A DNA stretch of 45,872 nt, from positions 1 to 45,872 of the forward strand of contig JAAYPW010000081.1 of the NCBI GenBank assembly GCA_012519615.1. Direction: 5' to 3'. The stretch comes from Fusobacteriota bacterium (GTDB lineage Bacteria; Fusobacteriota; Fusobacteriia; Fusobacteriales; JAAYPW01). The notes beneath the pieces are model-generated. The model worked only from the letters and a program-made list of their open reading frames with translations, was not told the DNA's origin and ran no database searches. Positions 8,183 through 19,308 of this stretch are shown here, piece after piece (position 1 is the first letter of the stretch; every line of letters begins with the position of its first letter). The position numbers and the translations under genes are program-made.

Positions 8183-8201
8183 AATGAAAAGGATTGATAA
8201 A

Positions 8202-11200
8202 ATGAATAGAGATTATGGTGGATTTGTGCACTTACATTTGCATACAGAATATAGTCTTTTTGATGGCGTAGGAAAAATAGATGAATATTTGGATAGAGCG
8301 AAAGAATTGGGTATGGGTGCTATGGCTGTTACAGATCACGGAAATATGTTTTGTGCTGTATCATTTTATCAGAAAGCTATAAAAAAAGGGATTAAGCCCA
8401 TAATCGGGATAGAATCATATATTTCGAGTAATGATGTAGAAAAAAAAGATAAAACTATGTATCACCTTATTTTACTTGCAAAAAACAATATTGGATATAG
8501 AAATCTACTAAAATTATCGTCTTATGGATATACAGATGGATTTTACTATAAACCGAGAATTGATAAAACTATTTTAAAAAAATATAGTGATGGAATTATA
8601 GGGTTATCTGCTTGTATGCATGGGGAGATCCCATCTTATTTACTACAAAATAATTTAGAAATGGTAGAAAAATCATTATACGAGTATATTGATATTTTTG
8701 GAAAAGATGATTTTTATATTGAATTACAGGCAAATGGATTAAAAGAACAAGAGATATTAAATGATGATCTATTTAAATTAGCACAAAAACATGGAATTAA
8801 AGTTGTTGCAACAAATGATGTACATTATGTACATTATGGAGACGATAATTTACAAGACATACTACTTTGTCTACAAACAGGATCAAAACTTGATGATAAA
8901 AACAGAATGAAAATAGATACTGATGAACTTTATTTTAAAAGTAAAAGTCAAATGTTGCAAAAAATGAACATTTATGATAATGCAATTGAAAATACAGTGG
9001 AAATTGCAAAAAAATGTAATGTTAGTATAGAATTTGGAGTTTTTAAATTTCCAGAATATGAAACACCAGTTGGATTTAATAAAATTTCTGAATATTTAAA
9101 ATATTTAGTTTATAAAGGTCATGAAAAAAAATATAAAGATACAAAAGATGAGAAAATATTAGAGAGAATAGAGTATGAATTAGATGTTATAACGAAAATG
9201 GGTTATTCAGAATATTTTGTTGTAGTTTGGGATTTTATACAATTTGCTAAACAAAATAAGATAATGGTAGGCCCTGGAAGAGGTTCTGCAGCAGGAAGTA
9301 TTATCTCATATTTACTAGATATAACAGATATTGATCCGATTAAATATAATCTTATTTTTGAAAGATTTCTGAATCCACAAAGAATAAGTATGCCGGACAT
9401 AGATGTAGATTTATGTAACGAACGTAGACAGGAAGTTATAAACTATATTGTAAATAAATATGGGAAAGATAAAGTTTCGCAGATTATCACTTTTGGTACA
9501 TTAAAATCAAGGGCAGCTATTAGAGATGTAGGACGAGTATTAGGGGTGCCTATAGCAAAAATTGATAGACTAGCAAAAATGTTGATAGATGGGGATGATT
9601 TAAGTAATTCTCTAAAAAATATACCTAGTTTACAAGATTTATATAAAAAAGATAGTGAAATTCAAAAAGTTATTGACTATTCATTAAGATTAGAAGGGAA
9701 AGTAAGACATGCTTCGATCCATGCAGCTGGAATTGTAATATCAAGAAAAAGTCTTCATGAAGATGTACCTCTATATTCTGATAATAAATCAAATATTGTA
9801 TCTACACAATACCAGATGAAGGAGTTGGAAGATTTAGGTTTACTTAAAATGGATCTACTTGGATTGAAAAACTTAAGTCTCTTAGAAAAAGCATTAATAT
9901 ATATAGAAAAGGATAAAAATATTAAAATAAATTTAGATGAAATAAAGCTAGATGATGAAAAAACATATAAATTACTTAGTAAAGGTGATACAAGTGGTGT
10001 ATTTCAGTTGGAATCATCTGGTATTAGAAACTTATTAAAAAGGATATCACCTACGGAATTCGAAGATATTATCGCAATTTTAGCATTATATCGCCCTGGG
10101 CCTCTAGGTAGCGGAATGGTAGATAGCTATATAGATGCAAAACATAAAAAAATCGAAGTAAAATATATGCATCCTAAGCTAGAAGAGGTTTTGAAAGAGA
10201 CACATGGTGTAATATTATATCAAGAACAAGTTATGAAAATTGCAAATATATTAGCAAATTATACTCTTGCAGAAGCTGATTTACTTAGAAGGGCAATATC
10301 TAAAAAAGATTTTGATATTATGGAGGAAAATAAAAATAAATTTATAAATCGCGCAAGTGAAAATGGGGTAGATGAAAAAATTGCTGAAAATATATTCATC
10401 TTAATTGATAAATTTGCAGGATACGGTTTTAATAAATCACACTCTGCTGCATATGCACTTATTGCATACCAAACAGCGTATTTAAAAGCTAATTATACTG
10501 TCCCATATTTTGCTGCATTAATGAGTAGCGAATCTAATAACCTTGATAAACTAAGTTTTTATCTTGAGGAAGCGAAAAAAAACATGATTGAGATATTACC
10601 ACCAGATGTAAATAAATCAGAGTTTTTATTTAAAATTGATAATAATCGTATAAGATTTGGACTATCGGCAATTAAACATTTTGGAGATAATATCGCTAAT
10701 TTAATTGTGGAAGACAGAGAGAAAAATGGTAATTATATGGATTATGAAGATTTTGTATTTAGACTTAAAAAAAATGGTAATATTAATAGGAAACATTTAG
10801 AAGCAGTGGTATTATCAGGAGCACTAGATTCATTAGAGGGAAATAGAAAACAGAAATATGAAATTATAGACAAAATTCTAGATAATATAACTAAAAAAAT
10901 AGATAGGGAGAATGATATAAGACAATCTCTTTTTGCACATACAAAAATACCTAATATTAAATTAGAGTATGAAAATCTAATTGAATATACTACAGAAGAG
11001 AAATTAAACAAAGAGAAAGAGTATTTAGGTGTATATATATCGGGACATCCTATAGATAAATATAGATTAAAGCTAGAAAAATTTAAATTAGATAAAGTTT
11101 CAGAAATTTATGAACAAAATAAAACAAAAGTTAAAATTGCTGGAATAATTACTAATTTAAATAAGAAGTTAACAAAAGCTGGACAAGTTATGGCTGAATT

Positions 11201-11624
11201 TACTCTAGAAGACTATACGGCTAGTATAAAAGTTATTGTTTTTCCAAATAAGTATAAAGAAATAGGACATTTGATTATGGAAAATAATCTTGTTTATATT
11301 GATGGTGAAGTTAGTAAAAATTATTTTAATAATATAACAGAGATAAAAATAAATATATTTAATATAAAAAATCTTGATGAAATAGAGGAAATTAAAAAAT
11401 TTAAGGTATATATTCTTTTAGAAGGGGATAATTTTTCAAAATCAATAACATTAAAAAAAATCTTGAAAAAATATAAAGGTGAAAATGAAACGTTACTTGC
11501 AATTAAGCAAAATAATAAAAAAAGTATTGTAAAACTAGATAAGGAATACTACGTAAATCCAACAGAATTATTTATTTTAGAAGTAGAAGAGTTGTTAGGT
11601 AAAAATACAATTGCAATTAGATAA
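8202..11624 (+). CDS. dnaE: DNA polymerase III subunit alpha
   Basis: PHP domain FVHLHLHTEYSLFDG; GPGRGSAAGS; PDIDVDL; OB-fold region. ATG 8202 has SD AAAAGGA; the ORF-track start at 8184 would place that SD inside the gene. Confidence 0.95.
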   Translation: MNRDYGGFVHLHLHTEYSLFDGVGKIDEYLDRAKELGMGAMAVTDHGNMFCAVSFYQKAIKKGIKPIIGIESYISSNDVEKKDKTMYHLILLAKNNIGYRNLLKLSSYGYTDGFYYKPRIDKTILKKYSDGIIGLSACMHGEIPSYLLQNNLEMVEKSLYEYIDIFGKDDFYIELQANGLKEQEILNDDLFKLAQKHGIKVVATNDVHYVHYGDDNLQDILLCLQTGSKLDDKNRMKIDTDELYFKSKSQMLQKMNIYDNAIENTVEIAKKCNVSIEFGVFKFPEYETPVGFNKISEYLKYLVYKGHEKKYKDTKDEKILERIEYELDVITKMGYSEYFVVVWDFIQFAKQNKIMVGPGRGSAAGSIISYLLDITDIDPIKYNLIFERFLNPQRISMPDIDVDLCNERRQEVINYIVNKYGKDKVSQIITFGTLKSRAAIRDVGRVLGVPIAKIDRLAKMLIDGDDLSNSLKNIPSLQDLYKKDSEIQKVIDYSLRLEGKVRHASIHAAGIVISRKSLHEDVPLYSDNKSNIVSTQYQMKELEDLGLLKMDLLGLKNLSLLEKALIYIEKDKNIKINLDEIKLDDEKTYKLLSKGDTSGVFQLESSGIRNLLKRISPTEFEDIIAILALYRPGPLGSGMVDSYIDAKHKKIEVKYMHPKLEEVLKETHGVILYQEQVMKIANILANYTLAEADLLRRAISKKDFDIMEENKNKFINRASENGVDEKIAENIFILIDKFAGYGFNKSHSAAYALIAYQTAYLKANYTVPYFAALMSSESNNLDKLSFYLEEAKKNMIEILPPDVNKSEFLFKIDNNRIRFGLSAIKHFGDNIANLIVEDREKNGNYMDYEDFVFRLKKNGNINRKHLEAVVLSGALDSLEGNRKQKYEIIDKILDNITKKIDRENDIRQSLFAHTKIPNIKLEYENLIEYTTEEKLNKEKEYLGVYISGHPIDKYRLKLEKFKLDKVSEIYEQNKTKVKIAGIITNLNKKLTKAGQVMAEFTLEDYTASIKVIVFPNKYKEIGHLIMENNLVYIDGEVSKNYFNNITEIKINIFNIKNLDEIEEIKKFKVYILLEGDNFSKSITLKKILKKYKGENETLLAIKQNNKKSIVKLDKEYYVNPTELFILEVEELLGKNTIAIR

Positions 11625-11687
11625 AAAATATGCTAAAATATTTTAATAAAATAAAAATTAATTAAATATCAGGAGGTTTTAAATAAA

Positions 11688-12110
11688 ATGGATGTAACAG
11701 AAATAAAAAAATTGATGCAAATACTTAATGATACAGACGTTACTGAGATTACTCTAGAATCAGAAGGGACGAAAGTTTTATTAAAAAAAGATATGCTAAA
11801 AGCATCATTACCTAAAATCGTTGAAGAAACTTCTATTTCTGAAGATGTAGAGGAAACGGTGATTAGTCAAACAGGTACATTAATTTCAATGAGTGTTGGT
11901 AAATTTTATTATAAAAAAAATACAAATACACCAATAATTAAATTGGGTGATAAAATAGAAAAAGGACAAATTATAGGTTATATTGAATCTATTGGTATTA
12001 AAACGGATGTTATAAGTGATAAAGCCGGTATTGTAAAAGAAATTTATCTTGAAAATGGTGGTAATGCTGAATTTGGGCAAAACTTAGTATTATTAGAGGT
12101 AAATAATTAA
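11688..12110 (+). CDS. AccB/BCCP-like protein without the biotinylation lysine
   Basis: AccB-like N-terminus MDVTEIKKLMQILNDTDVTEITLES; C-terminal domain LISMSVGKFY...IIGYIESIGIKTDVISDKAGIVKEI aligned to the canonical EAMKMMNxI region; directly upstream of accC. Confidence 0.85.
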   Translation: MDVTEIKKLMQILNDTDVTEITLESEGTKVLLKKDMLKASLPKIVEETSISEDVEETVISQTGTLISMSVGKFYYKKNTNTPIIKLGDKIEKGQIIGYIESIGIKTDVISDKAGIVKEIYLENGGNAEFGQNLVLLEVNN

Positions 12111-12135: not shown

Positions 12136-12185
12136 GGGAGGGAGTTATTATAAGAATATAATTATTCTTAGGTAACGTTTAATAG
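12136..12185 (+). promoter_or_regulatory. Hairpin-bridged translation initiation region of accC
   Basis: GGGAGGGAG (12136-12144), then TAAGAATA (12151-12158) / loop TAAT / TATTCTTA (12163-12170), outer GTTA (12144-12147)/TAAC (12173-12176), then 9 nt to ATG 12186. An in-frame TAG immediately precedes the ATG. Confidence 0.65.
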
Positions 12186-13529
12186 ATGTTTGAAAAAATA
12201 TTAATAGCAAATAGAGGTGAAATTGCTGTTAGGATTATAAGAGCGGCTAGAGAATTAGGAGTTAAAACAGTAGCAGTATATTCAGAAGTAGATAAAGATT
12301 CACTACATGTAAGATTAGCAGATGAATCTGTATGTATAGGTTCGTCAATGAGTTCAGAAAGCTATTTAAAAATACCGAATATAATTGCAGCAGCTGAAAT
12401 GACAAATGCTGATGCTATACATCCAGGATATGGATTTTTAGCAGAAAATGCTGAGTTTGCAAAAATATGTGAAACATATAATATTGTATTCATCGGACCA
12501 TCTGCTGAGTGTATCACAAAAATGGGTGATAAAGCAACTGCAAGAGAAACAGCAATGGCAAATAACGTACCTGTAACTCCTGGCTCGAAAGCTATAATTC
12601 ATACAATTGAGGAAGCAAAAAAAATTGTAAACGAAGAGATTAAATTCCCTGTTATGATAAAAGCAACTGCAGGTGGCGGTGGAAAAGGGATGAGAATTGC
12701 TAAAAATGAGAAAGAGTTAGAAACAAATTTCGTAGCAGCAAGAAATGAGGCTAAAGCTGCATTTGGAAATCCAGATGTATATATAGAAAAATATATTGAA
12801 CAACCGAAACACATTGAGATACAGATTATAGGAGATAAACATGGAAATGTTGTACATTTAGGTGAAAGAGATTGTTCTATCCAAAGAAGACACCAAAAAC
12901 TTGTAGAGGAATCACCTTCATTAATATTAACAGATGATATTAGAACAAAAATGGGTGAAGCTGCTGTAAGACTTGCAAAAGCAATTAATTATGATAGTGC
13001 TGGTACATTGGAATTCTTAGTTGATAAAAATAAAAATTTCTATTTTATGGAGATGAATACAAGAATACAAGTAGAACATACTGTTACAGAGATGATAACG
13101 GGTGTAGACTTAATAAAAGAGCAAATTATAGCTGCAAGTGGAGAAAAACTTACAGTAACACAAGATGATGTGAATTTAAATGGATTTGTAATTGAATGTA
13201 GAATAAATGCAGAGGATCCAGATAATAATTTCATGCCTAGTGCTGGTAAAATAGAAAATTATATTGCACCTGGTGGAATAGGTGTAAGAATAGATAGTCA
13301 CTCTTATTCAGGATATGAGATTCCACCTTATTATGACTCTATGATCGCTAAATTAATAGTACATGGTAAAACTAGAGAAGAAGTTGTATCGAGAATGAAA
13401 AGAGCATTAAGAGAGTATATAATTGAAGGTGTTAAAACAACAATACCTTTCCATCTTAGAGTTTTAGATAATGAAAAATATGTTAAAGGTGAATATTCAA
13501 CAGACTTTATAGAAAAAGAATTTAGTTAA
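12186..13529 (+). CDS. accC: Acetyl-CoA carboxylase, biotin carboxylase subunit
   Basis: [58 protein letters not shown]. Confidence 0.96.
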
Positions 13530-13586: not shown

Positions 13587-13946
13587 ATGGCAGATTTAGG
13601 TAATATTAAAATTTCGAATGAAGTAGTAGCAATAATTTCTGGGATTTCTTCTACAGAAATTGAAGGTGTCTACGCAATGAGTGGAGGAATTACAGAAGGC
13701 ATTTCAACAATTCTTGGGAAGAAAAATTTTTCTAAAGGGGTAAAAGTTGAAACAAATGAAAATGAAACAAAAATTGATGTGAATTTAATTGTAGATTATG
13801 GTGTAAAAATTCCTGAAATTGCTGCGAAAGTGCAACAAAATATAATGTCTGCAGTTACTAATATGACAGGATTAGAAGTAGCGGAAATTAATGTATATGT
13901 ACAAGGGATTAATATTCCTAAAGAGGAAACAAAGGAAGAAGAATAA
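13587..13946 (+). CDS. Asp23/Gls24 family envelope stress protein
   Basis: GNIKISNEVVAIISGISSTEIEGVYAMSGG...VDYGVKIPEIAAKVQQNIMSAVTNMTGLEVAEINVYVQGI. Confidence 0.92.
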   Translation: MADLGNIKISNEVVAIISGISSTEIEGVYAMSGGITEGISTILGKKNFSKGVKVETNENETKIDVNLIVDYGVKIPEIAAKVQQNIMSAVTNMTGLEVAEINVYVQGINIPKEETKEEE

Positions 13947-14602: not shown

Positions 14603-14833
14603 ATGAATGATTTTGAAAAGATAATTGAGTTTATGCAGATTAACTTTAGAAGGATAATAGGTGCTATATTTGGATTTATATTTGGAATCTTGTGGATTAA
14701 ATTTGGATTTTTAAATACAATTGGTATTTTATTATGTACAATAATATTTTCAATAATATTTAATTTAATACCAAAAAATGTTAGTATTAAAAAATTAATA
14801 ATAAAATTTTTGAATAATGGAGAGGATTTTTAA
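14603..14833 (+). CDS. DUF2273-like small membrane protein
   Basis: 76 aa with paired TM helices (IIGAIFGFIFGILWIKFGFLNTIGILLCTIIF); position in the asp23-amaP operon. Confidence 0.7.
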   Translation: MNDFEKIIEFMQINFRRIIGAIFGFIFGILWIKFGFLNTIGILLCTIIFSIIFNLIPKNVSIKKLIIKFLNNGEDF

Positions 14834-14834
14834 C

Positions 14835-15245
14835 GTGAGTATGAGACAAGCAAGGGAACATCTTTTCAAAATATTATTTGAATCAGATTCAAATAGTGTT
14901 TTACCTATAAATATAATTTATGATTATATAAACAGGGATGAGAATATTATAAAAAAAGAATATATGGATTTTATAGTAAAATACAGCGAAGAGATATCAG
15001 CGAATATAGATGAAATTGATAAGACTATTGATATAAATATGAGAGGCTGGGATATAAATAGAATTGGAGTTGTAGATAGAGTTTTACTTAGAATATCAAC
15101 TTATGAGATTTTATATGATATTATACCACAAAATATATCGATTAATGAAGTTGTTGAACTAGCTAAAATATACGGTGAAGAAAAAAGTTATGAGTTTATA
15201 AATGGTGTATTGGCAAATATAATCAAATTTAAAAAGAGTAACTAA
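14835..15245 (+). CDS. nusB: Transcription antitermination factor NusB
   Basis: MRQAREHLFKILFESD...WDINRIGVVDRVLLRISTYEILY...ISINEVVELAKIYGEEKSYEFINGVLANI. GTG 14835 follows GGAGAGG at good spacing; the ORF-track ATG at 14817 contains that SD. Confidence 0.9.
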   Translation: MSMRQAREHLFKILFESDSNSVLPINIIYDYINRDENIIKKEYMDFIVKYSEEISANIDEIDKTIDINMRGWDINRIGVVDRVLLRISTYEILYDIIPQNISINEVVELAKIYGEEKSYEFINGVLANIIKFKKSN

Positions 15246-18171: not shown

Positions 18172-19308
18172 TTGAATTTTTTTAATGATAAGATAAAAAA
18201 AGTTGAAAAAGAAAACAGGTTAAGAGAATTAAAAAAAATTGATAAAATTATTGGGAAAAAAATATATATAGACGGTAAACAGTATGTAGACTTCTCTTCA
18301 AATAATTATCTAGGGCTACGAGATGACAAAAGAGTTATAGAAGTAGCTCATTTTGCTATAGATAAATATGGATTAGGAAGCGGGGCCTCTAGAATTGTAT
18401 CAGGTGATGCTGATATATTTTATGAATTCGAAAAAAATATTGCAAAATTTCATAATAAAGAGTCTGCATTAATATTTAATAGTGGCTATGATGCAAATGT
18501 TGGGATTATATCAGCTATAATGACTAAAGAAGATATAATTTTTACCGATAAATATAATCATGCAAGTATATATGATGGAATGTTTTTAAGTAATGCGAAA
18601 ATAATAAGATATAGCCATAATAATATAACCGATTTAGAAGAAAAACTTATAAAATATAGAGATTCTTATAAAAAGGCTATGGTTGTAACAGATAGTGTAT
18701 TTAGTATGGATGGAGATAAAGGAAATCTAAAAGAGATAGAAAAACTTAAAATAAAATATGATTTTATATTTATGGTAGATGAAGCGCACGGAATTGGAAT
18801 ATTTGGTGAGAATGGTAATGGCATTGTAAATGAACAGCAAATAAAATCGGCGGATATAATTATGGGTACTTTAGGTAAAGCTTTTGGTCTAACTGGTGCT
18901 TATGTTGCATCATCACAAAGTATTATACGTTATCTAATTAATTATAGTAGGAGTTTTATTTTCTCAACAATGCTACCTCCAGCTATAATAGCTTCTGCTA
19001 ATAAAACATTAGAATTAATACAAAATGAAAAATTTAGAAGAGAAAAAATAATCGAATTATCAAATTATTTAAGACAAGAATTGAAATATAAGGGTTATAA
19101 TACTTTAGAATCAAATACCCAAATTGTACCAGTAATTTTTAATAGTGATATAGATGCAATTAAAATAAGTAAAAAACTATATGAGAATAATTTATATGTA
19201 CCAGCAATAAGATATCCTGCTGTACCTGCAAACAAACCTAGACTTAGAATCTCAATTAATTTTAATATAACTAAAGAAGATATTGATAAAATTATAATAA
19301 ATTTATAA
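18172..19308 (+). CDS. bioF: 8-amino-7-oxononanoate synthase / KAPA synthase family
   Basis: DFSSNNYLGLRDDKRV, GSGASRIVSGD, VVTDSVFSMDGDKGNL, VDEAHGIGIFG, GTLGKAFGLTGAYV; TTG start; downstream of bioB. Confidence 0.9.
   Translation: MNFFNDKIKKVEKENRLRELKKIDKIIGKKIYIDGKQYVDFSSNNYLGLRDDKRVIEVAHFAIDKYGLGSGASRIVSGDADIFYEFEKNIAKFHNKESALIFNSGYDANVGIISAIMTKEDIIFTDKYNHASIYDGMFLSNAKIIRYSHNNITDLEEKLIKYRDSYKKAMVVTDSVFSMDGDKGNLKEIEKLKIKYDFIFMVDEAHGIGIFGENGNGIVNEQQIKSADIIMGTLGKAFGLTGAYVASSQSIIRYLINYSRSFIFSTMLPPAIIASANKTLELIQNEKFRREKIIELSNYLRQELKYKGYNTLESNTQIVPVIFNSDIDAIKISKKLYENNLYVPAIRYPAVPANKPRLRISINFNITKEDIDKIIINL

Follow-up and report, generated by a model that had tools for sequence, protein, structure and literature searches.

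The protein encoded directly upstream of the biotin carboxylase gene accC in the Fusobacteriota is a homologue of the biotin carboxyl carrier protein (BCCP, AccB) in which the biotinylated Lys is replaced by Gly. Based on the sequence comparisons presented here, this Lys-less protein is probably an anciently diverged, phylum-wide paralogue of AccB, which is non-biotinylatable and was retained in the AccC complex as a non-catalytic subunit. It was recognized in a contig of 45,872 nucleotides from a Fusobacteriota bacterium (JAAYPW010000081.1), the whole of which is referred to below as the window.

The gene for the Lys-less protein (positions 11688..12110, on the forward strand, as are its parts and the neighbouring genes from dnaE to nusB) codes for 140 aa and an orthologue of it is found at the same place in all 80 fusobacterial accC loci that were read. 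A Shine-Dalgarno sequence AGGAGG (11671..11676) can be read directly 11 nt before its ATG, and residues 3-33 of the protein (11694..11786) are predicted to form an N-terminal helix (residues 3-15) followed by a beta-hairpin (strands 20-25 and 28-33). The original observation that a Gly takes the place of the biotinylated Lys is borne out by these results. Gly103, specified by the codon GGT (11994..11996), is placed opposite the Lys of EAMKMM when the family profile, in which the context of this Gly is ...STIGVKTP..., is aligned with the BCCP from E. coli (PDB 4HR7), and the same placement is seen in a small MAFFT alignment. The alignment of Fusobacteriota AccB sequences that had been proposed as a check was also carried out and, as the Gly is found in the same column in 80/80 accC-linked homologues, a sequencing error or a species-specific mutation is ruled out as the source of Gly103. 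The nearest Lys was correctly placed two residues downstream (Lys105, 12000..12002). However, this residue should not be interpreted as a relocated biotinylation site, as a Lys is present in this column in only 37 of the 80 proteins, and a shifted biotinylated Lys is thus rejected. The segment SMSVGKFY, which had been regarded as thumb-like, corresponds instead to the strand preceding the thumb (SPMVGTFY in E. coli); the thumb proper (TPSPDAKA in E. coli) is exchanged in the Lys-less protein for the unrelated and slightly shorter KKNTNTP, and it is shortened or gone in several of its relatives.

The Lys-less protein can be aligned over its whole length with the BCCP model TIGR00531, with a score (62.0 bits) which is below the curated cut-off of 115.2, and it matches the Pfam domain Biotin_lipoyl (PF00364) with 36.9 bits, above the cut-off of 22.1. 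The family profile also matches the full-length BCCP of E. coli as found in the crystal structure of BC-BCCP, 4HR7 (E 4.8e-18). The AlphaFold2 model based on a 19-sequence alignment, which is moderately confident (mean pLDDT 73), predicts a BCCP fold, with pLDDT values of ~82-90 from residue 91 onwards and only moderate values (about 67-70) at the N-terminus. The best PDB matches to this model by Foldseek are 1BDO and 1A6X, with 4HR7 within the top six, and Gly103 is located in it in the turn that joins strands 95-101 and 104-109, which is the site of the biotinyl Lys in BCCP. A relationship to RnfC, by way of its N-terminal domain (PF13375), was rejected, as the score of 22.6 bits is under the cut-off of 25.6 and the resemblance is at the level of the fold only. 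In terms of class membership, the Lys-less protein shares with AccB its full-length homology, the biotin/lipoyl fold of BCCP, the N-terminal helix and hairpin, and the accB-accC-yqhY synteny, but it differs from it in the altered thumb, in its score relative to TIGR00531 and in the absence of the biotinylated Lys from the motif E-x-M-K-[ML]. Because it lacks the Lys by which AccB is functionally defined and scores below the cut-off, the protein, although homologous to AccB on these comparisons, should not be called a BCCP.

The distribution of this protein was determined in 41 genomes of the order and 98 genomes of the phylum, where the window's own family is represented by the window's genome alone (1.80 Mb, 158 contigs, 97.9% complete). 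An accC above the cut-off was found in 81 of the 98 genomes of the phylum, and the gene upstream of it could be read in 80 of these, as accC in the remaining one (G091) lies at the end of its contig. In all 80 intact loci, which are from 23 genera and two orders, a Lys-less AccB homologue is present directly upstream of accC, and the Gly at the biotinyl-Lys column is invariant, inclusive of G097, which belongs to another order of the same class. Glu20, Lys29, Ser67, Gly71, Gly87, Gly93 and Gly114 are near-invariant among these homologues. The protein diverges fast, showing 24-53% identity to P0001 versus 68-80% for AccC, and the Nei-Gojobori dN/dS of its gene is 0.09-0.27 in 15 close pairs, except for one outlier of 0.44 that is based on 18 changes. 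This purifying selection, together with the intact open reading frames, led us to reject the possibility that it is a pseudogene. As the Lys-less proteins form a separate clade (support 98-100) in a tree of 40 rows, the family is of single origin.

Some other observations on this distribution are as follows. Extra copies of accC are present without the Lys-less gene in four genomes of the f3 family (L128-L131). A second accB-accC pair in G033 (L039, G033:C2) has the motif EAMKVF and an AccC that is ~52% identical, and the G+C content around it seems high for the phylum; it may represent a horizontal transfer or contamination. Among the 14 genomes lacking accC that are at least 90% complete, 10 (viz. 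G012, G028, G038, G040, G041, G088, G089, G094, G095 and G096) were not matched by the profile of the Lys-less family (E <= 1e-6), and the other four (G023, G054, G055 and G073) showed weak matches, which are taken to be other biotin-domain proteins, part of them having been read. Linkage in one operon could be as much the cause of this co-occurrence of the Lys-less gene with accC as function. In a scan beyond the phylum with a profile of five family sequences, the matches were confined to four loci from Staphylococcus and Bacteroidota, three of which, with an intact EAMKV motif, are BCCPs or PycBs and one of which is an unrelated peptidase-like protein. No account of a Lys-less bacterial AccB paralogue was found in the open-access literature.

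The synteny with accC that was described for the window is a general characteristic of the intact fusobacterial loci that were read. In the window, the Lys-less gene is preceded by dnaE (8184..11624; PRK06826, 1372 bits) and followed by accC (12186..13529; TIGR00514, 742.9 bits versus a cut-off of 626.5), which is the only AccC gene of this genome above the family cut-off, and then by the genes for a YqhY-like protein of the Asp23 family (13587..13946; PF03780, 120 bits), a small DUF2273 membrane protein of the same cluster (14603..14833; PF10031) and nusB (14817..15245; PF01029, 97.5 bits). In the loci whose flanks were read, the gene order is dnaE, the Lys-less accB, accC, asp23, in some cases a membrane protein, and nusB, with dnaE adjoining the Lys-less gene in most, but not all, of the genomes. 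This order corresponds to the accBC-yqhY neighbourhood described earlier for Firmicutes and Fusobacteria (PMC5437119), and on this basis the Lys-less protein holds the usual position of accB. Upstream of accC (12136-12186), a Shine-Dalgarno-like sequence GGGAGGGAG is found ~41 nt from the ATG, and an 8-bp perfect inverted repeat (12151-12158 and 12163-12170) lies between the two; when folded, this repeat might bring GGGAGGGAG and the ATG of accC together. The folding energy gives no significant support to this hairpin (z -1.41), and the longer gap between the Lys-less gene and accC in the window is not general among the relatives. As regards the biotin genes reported from the window, the assignment of bioB is supported, and the gene at 18172 encodes an aminotransferase class I/II protein, which is compatible with bioF.

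A second protein of ~155 aa containing the motif EAMK[LM] is encoded at an unlinked locus, which in the relatives that were read is near folD. Matches to TIGR00531 at E <= 1e-20 are present in 81 of the 98 genomes, 74 of them over the cut-off, and the 81 are nearly the same genomes as those containing accC. For the window's genome, where a search for a second, ordinary BCCP had been suggested, an intact carrier was indeed found; however, it is not a free protein. In this genome and in G001, which belongs to a different family and is rated 100% complete in 2 contigs, no free BCCP was detected with TIGR00531 (E <= 1e-20), and the sole match is to the last 155 residues of a pyruvate carboxylase subunit B of ~608 aa (PycB; L072:590-2425 and L074:2436-4268 in these two genomes). 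The fused protein contains HMGL-like, PYC_OADA and Biotin_lipoyl domains (PRK09282, 792 bits), and its BCCP part, which has the motif EAMKLM, also contains the whole of the AccB-type N-terminal region; in the window's genome it scores 129.5 bits with TIGR00531, over the cut-off. An assembly gap is unlikely to account for the missing free BCCP, as the folD locus of the window's genome is intact without an accB (L080) and the same fusion is present in the complete, two-contig G001.

The free and the fused carriers form one clade (support 100/97) in the 40-row tree, apart from the Lys-less proteins. Further, in both genomes the fused gene comes after an ACT-domain gene, and in several f4 genomes the free BCCP comes after a similar one. 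Due to this common clade and local synteny, the free and PycB-fused carriers are judged to be orthologous. The window's genome contains one AccC, together with accA and accD, and no OAD beta subunit was found in it or in G001. Because the PycB-fused BCCP is orthologous to the free carriers, one AccC and one PycB-borne biotin arm probably serve two carboxyltransferases in the window's family and in that of G001, so that pyruvate and acetyl-CoA would be carboxylated by means of a common arm. The assembly contains an incomplete gene for the biotin ligase, as the birA match spans only the first 62 positions and stops at the end of contig C50 (L081, G000:C50, 4419 nt). In other members of the phylum, G023 contains intact accD and accA (L082:2754-4637) without accC, a free BCCP or a Lys-less AccB; G054 and G055, from the same genus, also lack accC and a BCCP match, the accDA genes having been read in G023 alone. 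Some f3 genomes (L023, L024, L025 and L027) possess an extra EAMKLM-containing BCCP of ~147 aa, next to an ORF whose N-terminus by eye resembles biotin-dependent carboxyltransferase/5-oxoprolinase-type proteins.

Because the Lys is the point of biotin attachment, the Lys-less protein should not be biotinylated, and the catalytic carrying would be performed by a separate BCCP, viz. the free protein in most Fusobacteriota and, in the window's genome and G001, the domain at the C-terminus of PycB. Binding to AccC, and possibly also to the true BCCP, would involve the N-terminal helix and hairpin together with the BCCP-like core, and the Lys-less protein may determine how the biotin carboxylase half of acetyl-CoA carboxylase is assembled, or its stoichiometry or activity; the effect on AccC would be either inhibitor-like or assembly-like. 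The N-terminal hairpin of the Chloroflexus BCCP builds a barrel, tetramerises biotin carboxylase and supports its activity, the core being dispensable for this purpose, and the BC-BCCP tetramer of E. coli is held by the BCCP cores (PMC11077971). Both types of elements are retained in outline in the Lys-less protein, Glu20 and Lys29 being preserved in its predicted N-terminal part, and a non-catalytic, AccC-binding subunit is the simplest reading of these comparisons. A bolder proposal, to which we give somewhat less than even credence, is that the protein is a bacterial equivalent of the plant BADC proteins, which evolved before the fusobacterial orders split and governs the assembly of AccC, with a single AccC and a PycB-borne arm serving both oxaloacetate and malonyl-CoA synthesis in two of the families.

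Several other explanations of the Lys-less protein can be considered. In E. coli, transcription of accBC is autoregulated by the N-terminal domain of AccB (reviewed in PMC3896788), and the Lys-less protein could have kept this role and control the expression of accC, asp23 and nusB, as its gene is the first acc gene of the cluster, its N-terminal segment is kept and a hairpin could form between the Shine-Dalgarno sequence and the start of accC. However, the whole biotinyl-type core, inclusive of the invariant Gly71, Gly103 and Gly114, is conserved, none of which a purely N-terminal regulator would need, and with the hairpin lacking significance and the longer gap being confined in its occurrence, a role of this kind is unlikely. 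It is likewise improbable that the protein joins AccC to the Asp23/DUF2273 envelope proteins, thereby keeping the enzyme close to the membrane or linking it to YqhY-like regulation. The conserved cluster extending to asp23 and nusB, the DUF2273 gene in the window and the selection of mutations in ACC subunits, AccB and AccC included, by deletion of yqhY in B. subtilis (PMC5437119) are consistent with such a link, but the accBC-yqhY order is also found where AccB is a biotinylated carrier (PMC5437119), so that the cluster by itself provides no explanation for the loss of the Lys.

The remaining explanations have much less to recommend them. BCCP folds are recognized by the biotin ligase BirA and bioB is present in the window, which would suit a decoy or cofactor for BirA or for the control of the biotin operon; however, the conserved linkage is to accC and not to bio genes or birA, making such a function very improbable. 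That the protein still carries a group, being modified elsewhere (e.g. on Lys105) or by lipoyl transfer, is more doubtful still, for although a Lys follows Gly103 by two residues in the window, this column is poorly conserved and an intact EAMKLM carrier is present elsewhere in the genome. Lastly, the fast divergence and the existence of a replacement carrier could be interpreted as showing a decaying remnant of accB, left after that carrier arose, but the full-length reading frames in 80/80 loci, dN/dS values of 0.09-0.44, the near-invariant residues and the single ancient origin make this scarcely credible. The non-catalytic subunit of the AccC complex is the reading that we prefer.

Based on these results, the name BCCP would be mis-assigned in such fusobacterial accBC operons, as the positional accB should be unable to carry biotin and the working carrier is located elsewhere. 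They also suggest that fatty-acid synthesis has a clade-wide peculiarity in this phylum, to which oral and gut fusobacteria belong, and the PycB-fused carrier would, in two families, couple anaplerosis and fatty-acid synthesis via a common biotin arm. If the Lys-less protein controls AccC, it would provide a one-gene, operon-encoded bacterial system for testing the disputed role of BADC.

In comparison with known systems, PycB/OadA proteins with a C-terminal BCCP (PRK09282) provide the sole intact BCCP of the window's genome and G001, with its complete AccB-type N-terminal region. Unlike the Lys-less protein, this is likely a true carrier, which here lacks a BC partner of its own (only AccC being available) as well as the OAD beta subunit. 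The AccE/epsilon subunits of acyl-CoA carboxylases resemble the proposed role in being small, non-catalytic and an aid to assembly (PMC11926652, PMC3199775), but they are not paralogues of BCCP. The closest parallel is with the plant BADCs, which are BCCP paralogues without the biotinylation motif that show 25-30% identity and bind BC-BCCP, and which were first reported as inhibitors and later as a 'glue' for BC-BCCP assembly (PMC11926652). The Lys-less protein is similarly a BCCP paralogue without the motif, about 25-30% identical to BCCP, and it occurs alongside a BCCP of the same enzyme that can be biotinylated and that, in the window's genome, is fused to PycB. However, it is bacterial, phylum-wide and encoded beside accC at the usual accB position, and its binding and regulatory effect are putative. 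Its origin independently of plant BADC is likelier, as it forms a single fusobacterial clade within a bacterial operon. The earlier suggestion of a BADC-like, non-biotinylated paralogue encoded with accC is strengthened by the phylum-wide conservation, single origin, purifying selection, accC synteny and coexisting intact BCCP, and a BADC-like mode of action is what its architecture would predict. These similarities suggest that, with the Lys-less protein, the Fusobacteriota possess a bacterial counterpart of the non-biotinylated helpers by which plants control fatty-acid synthesis.
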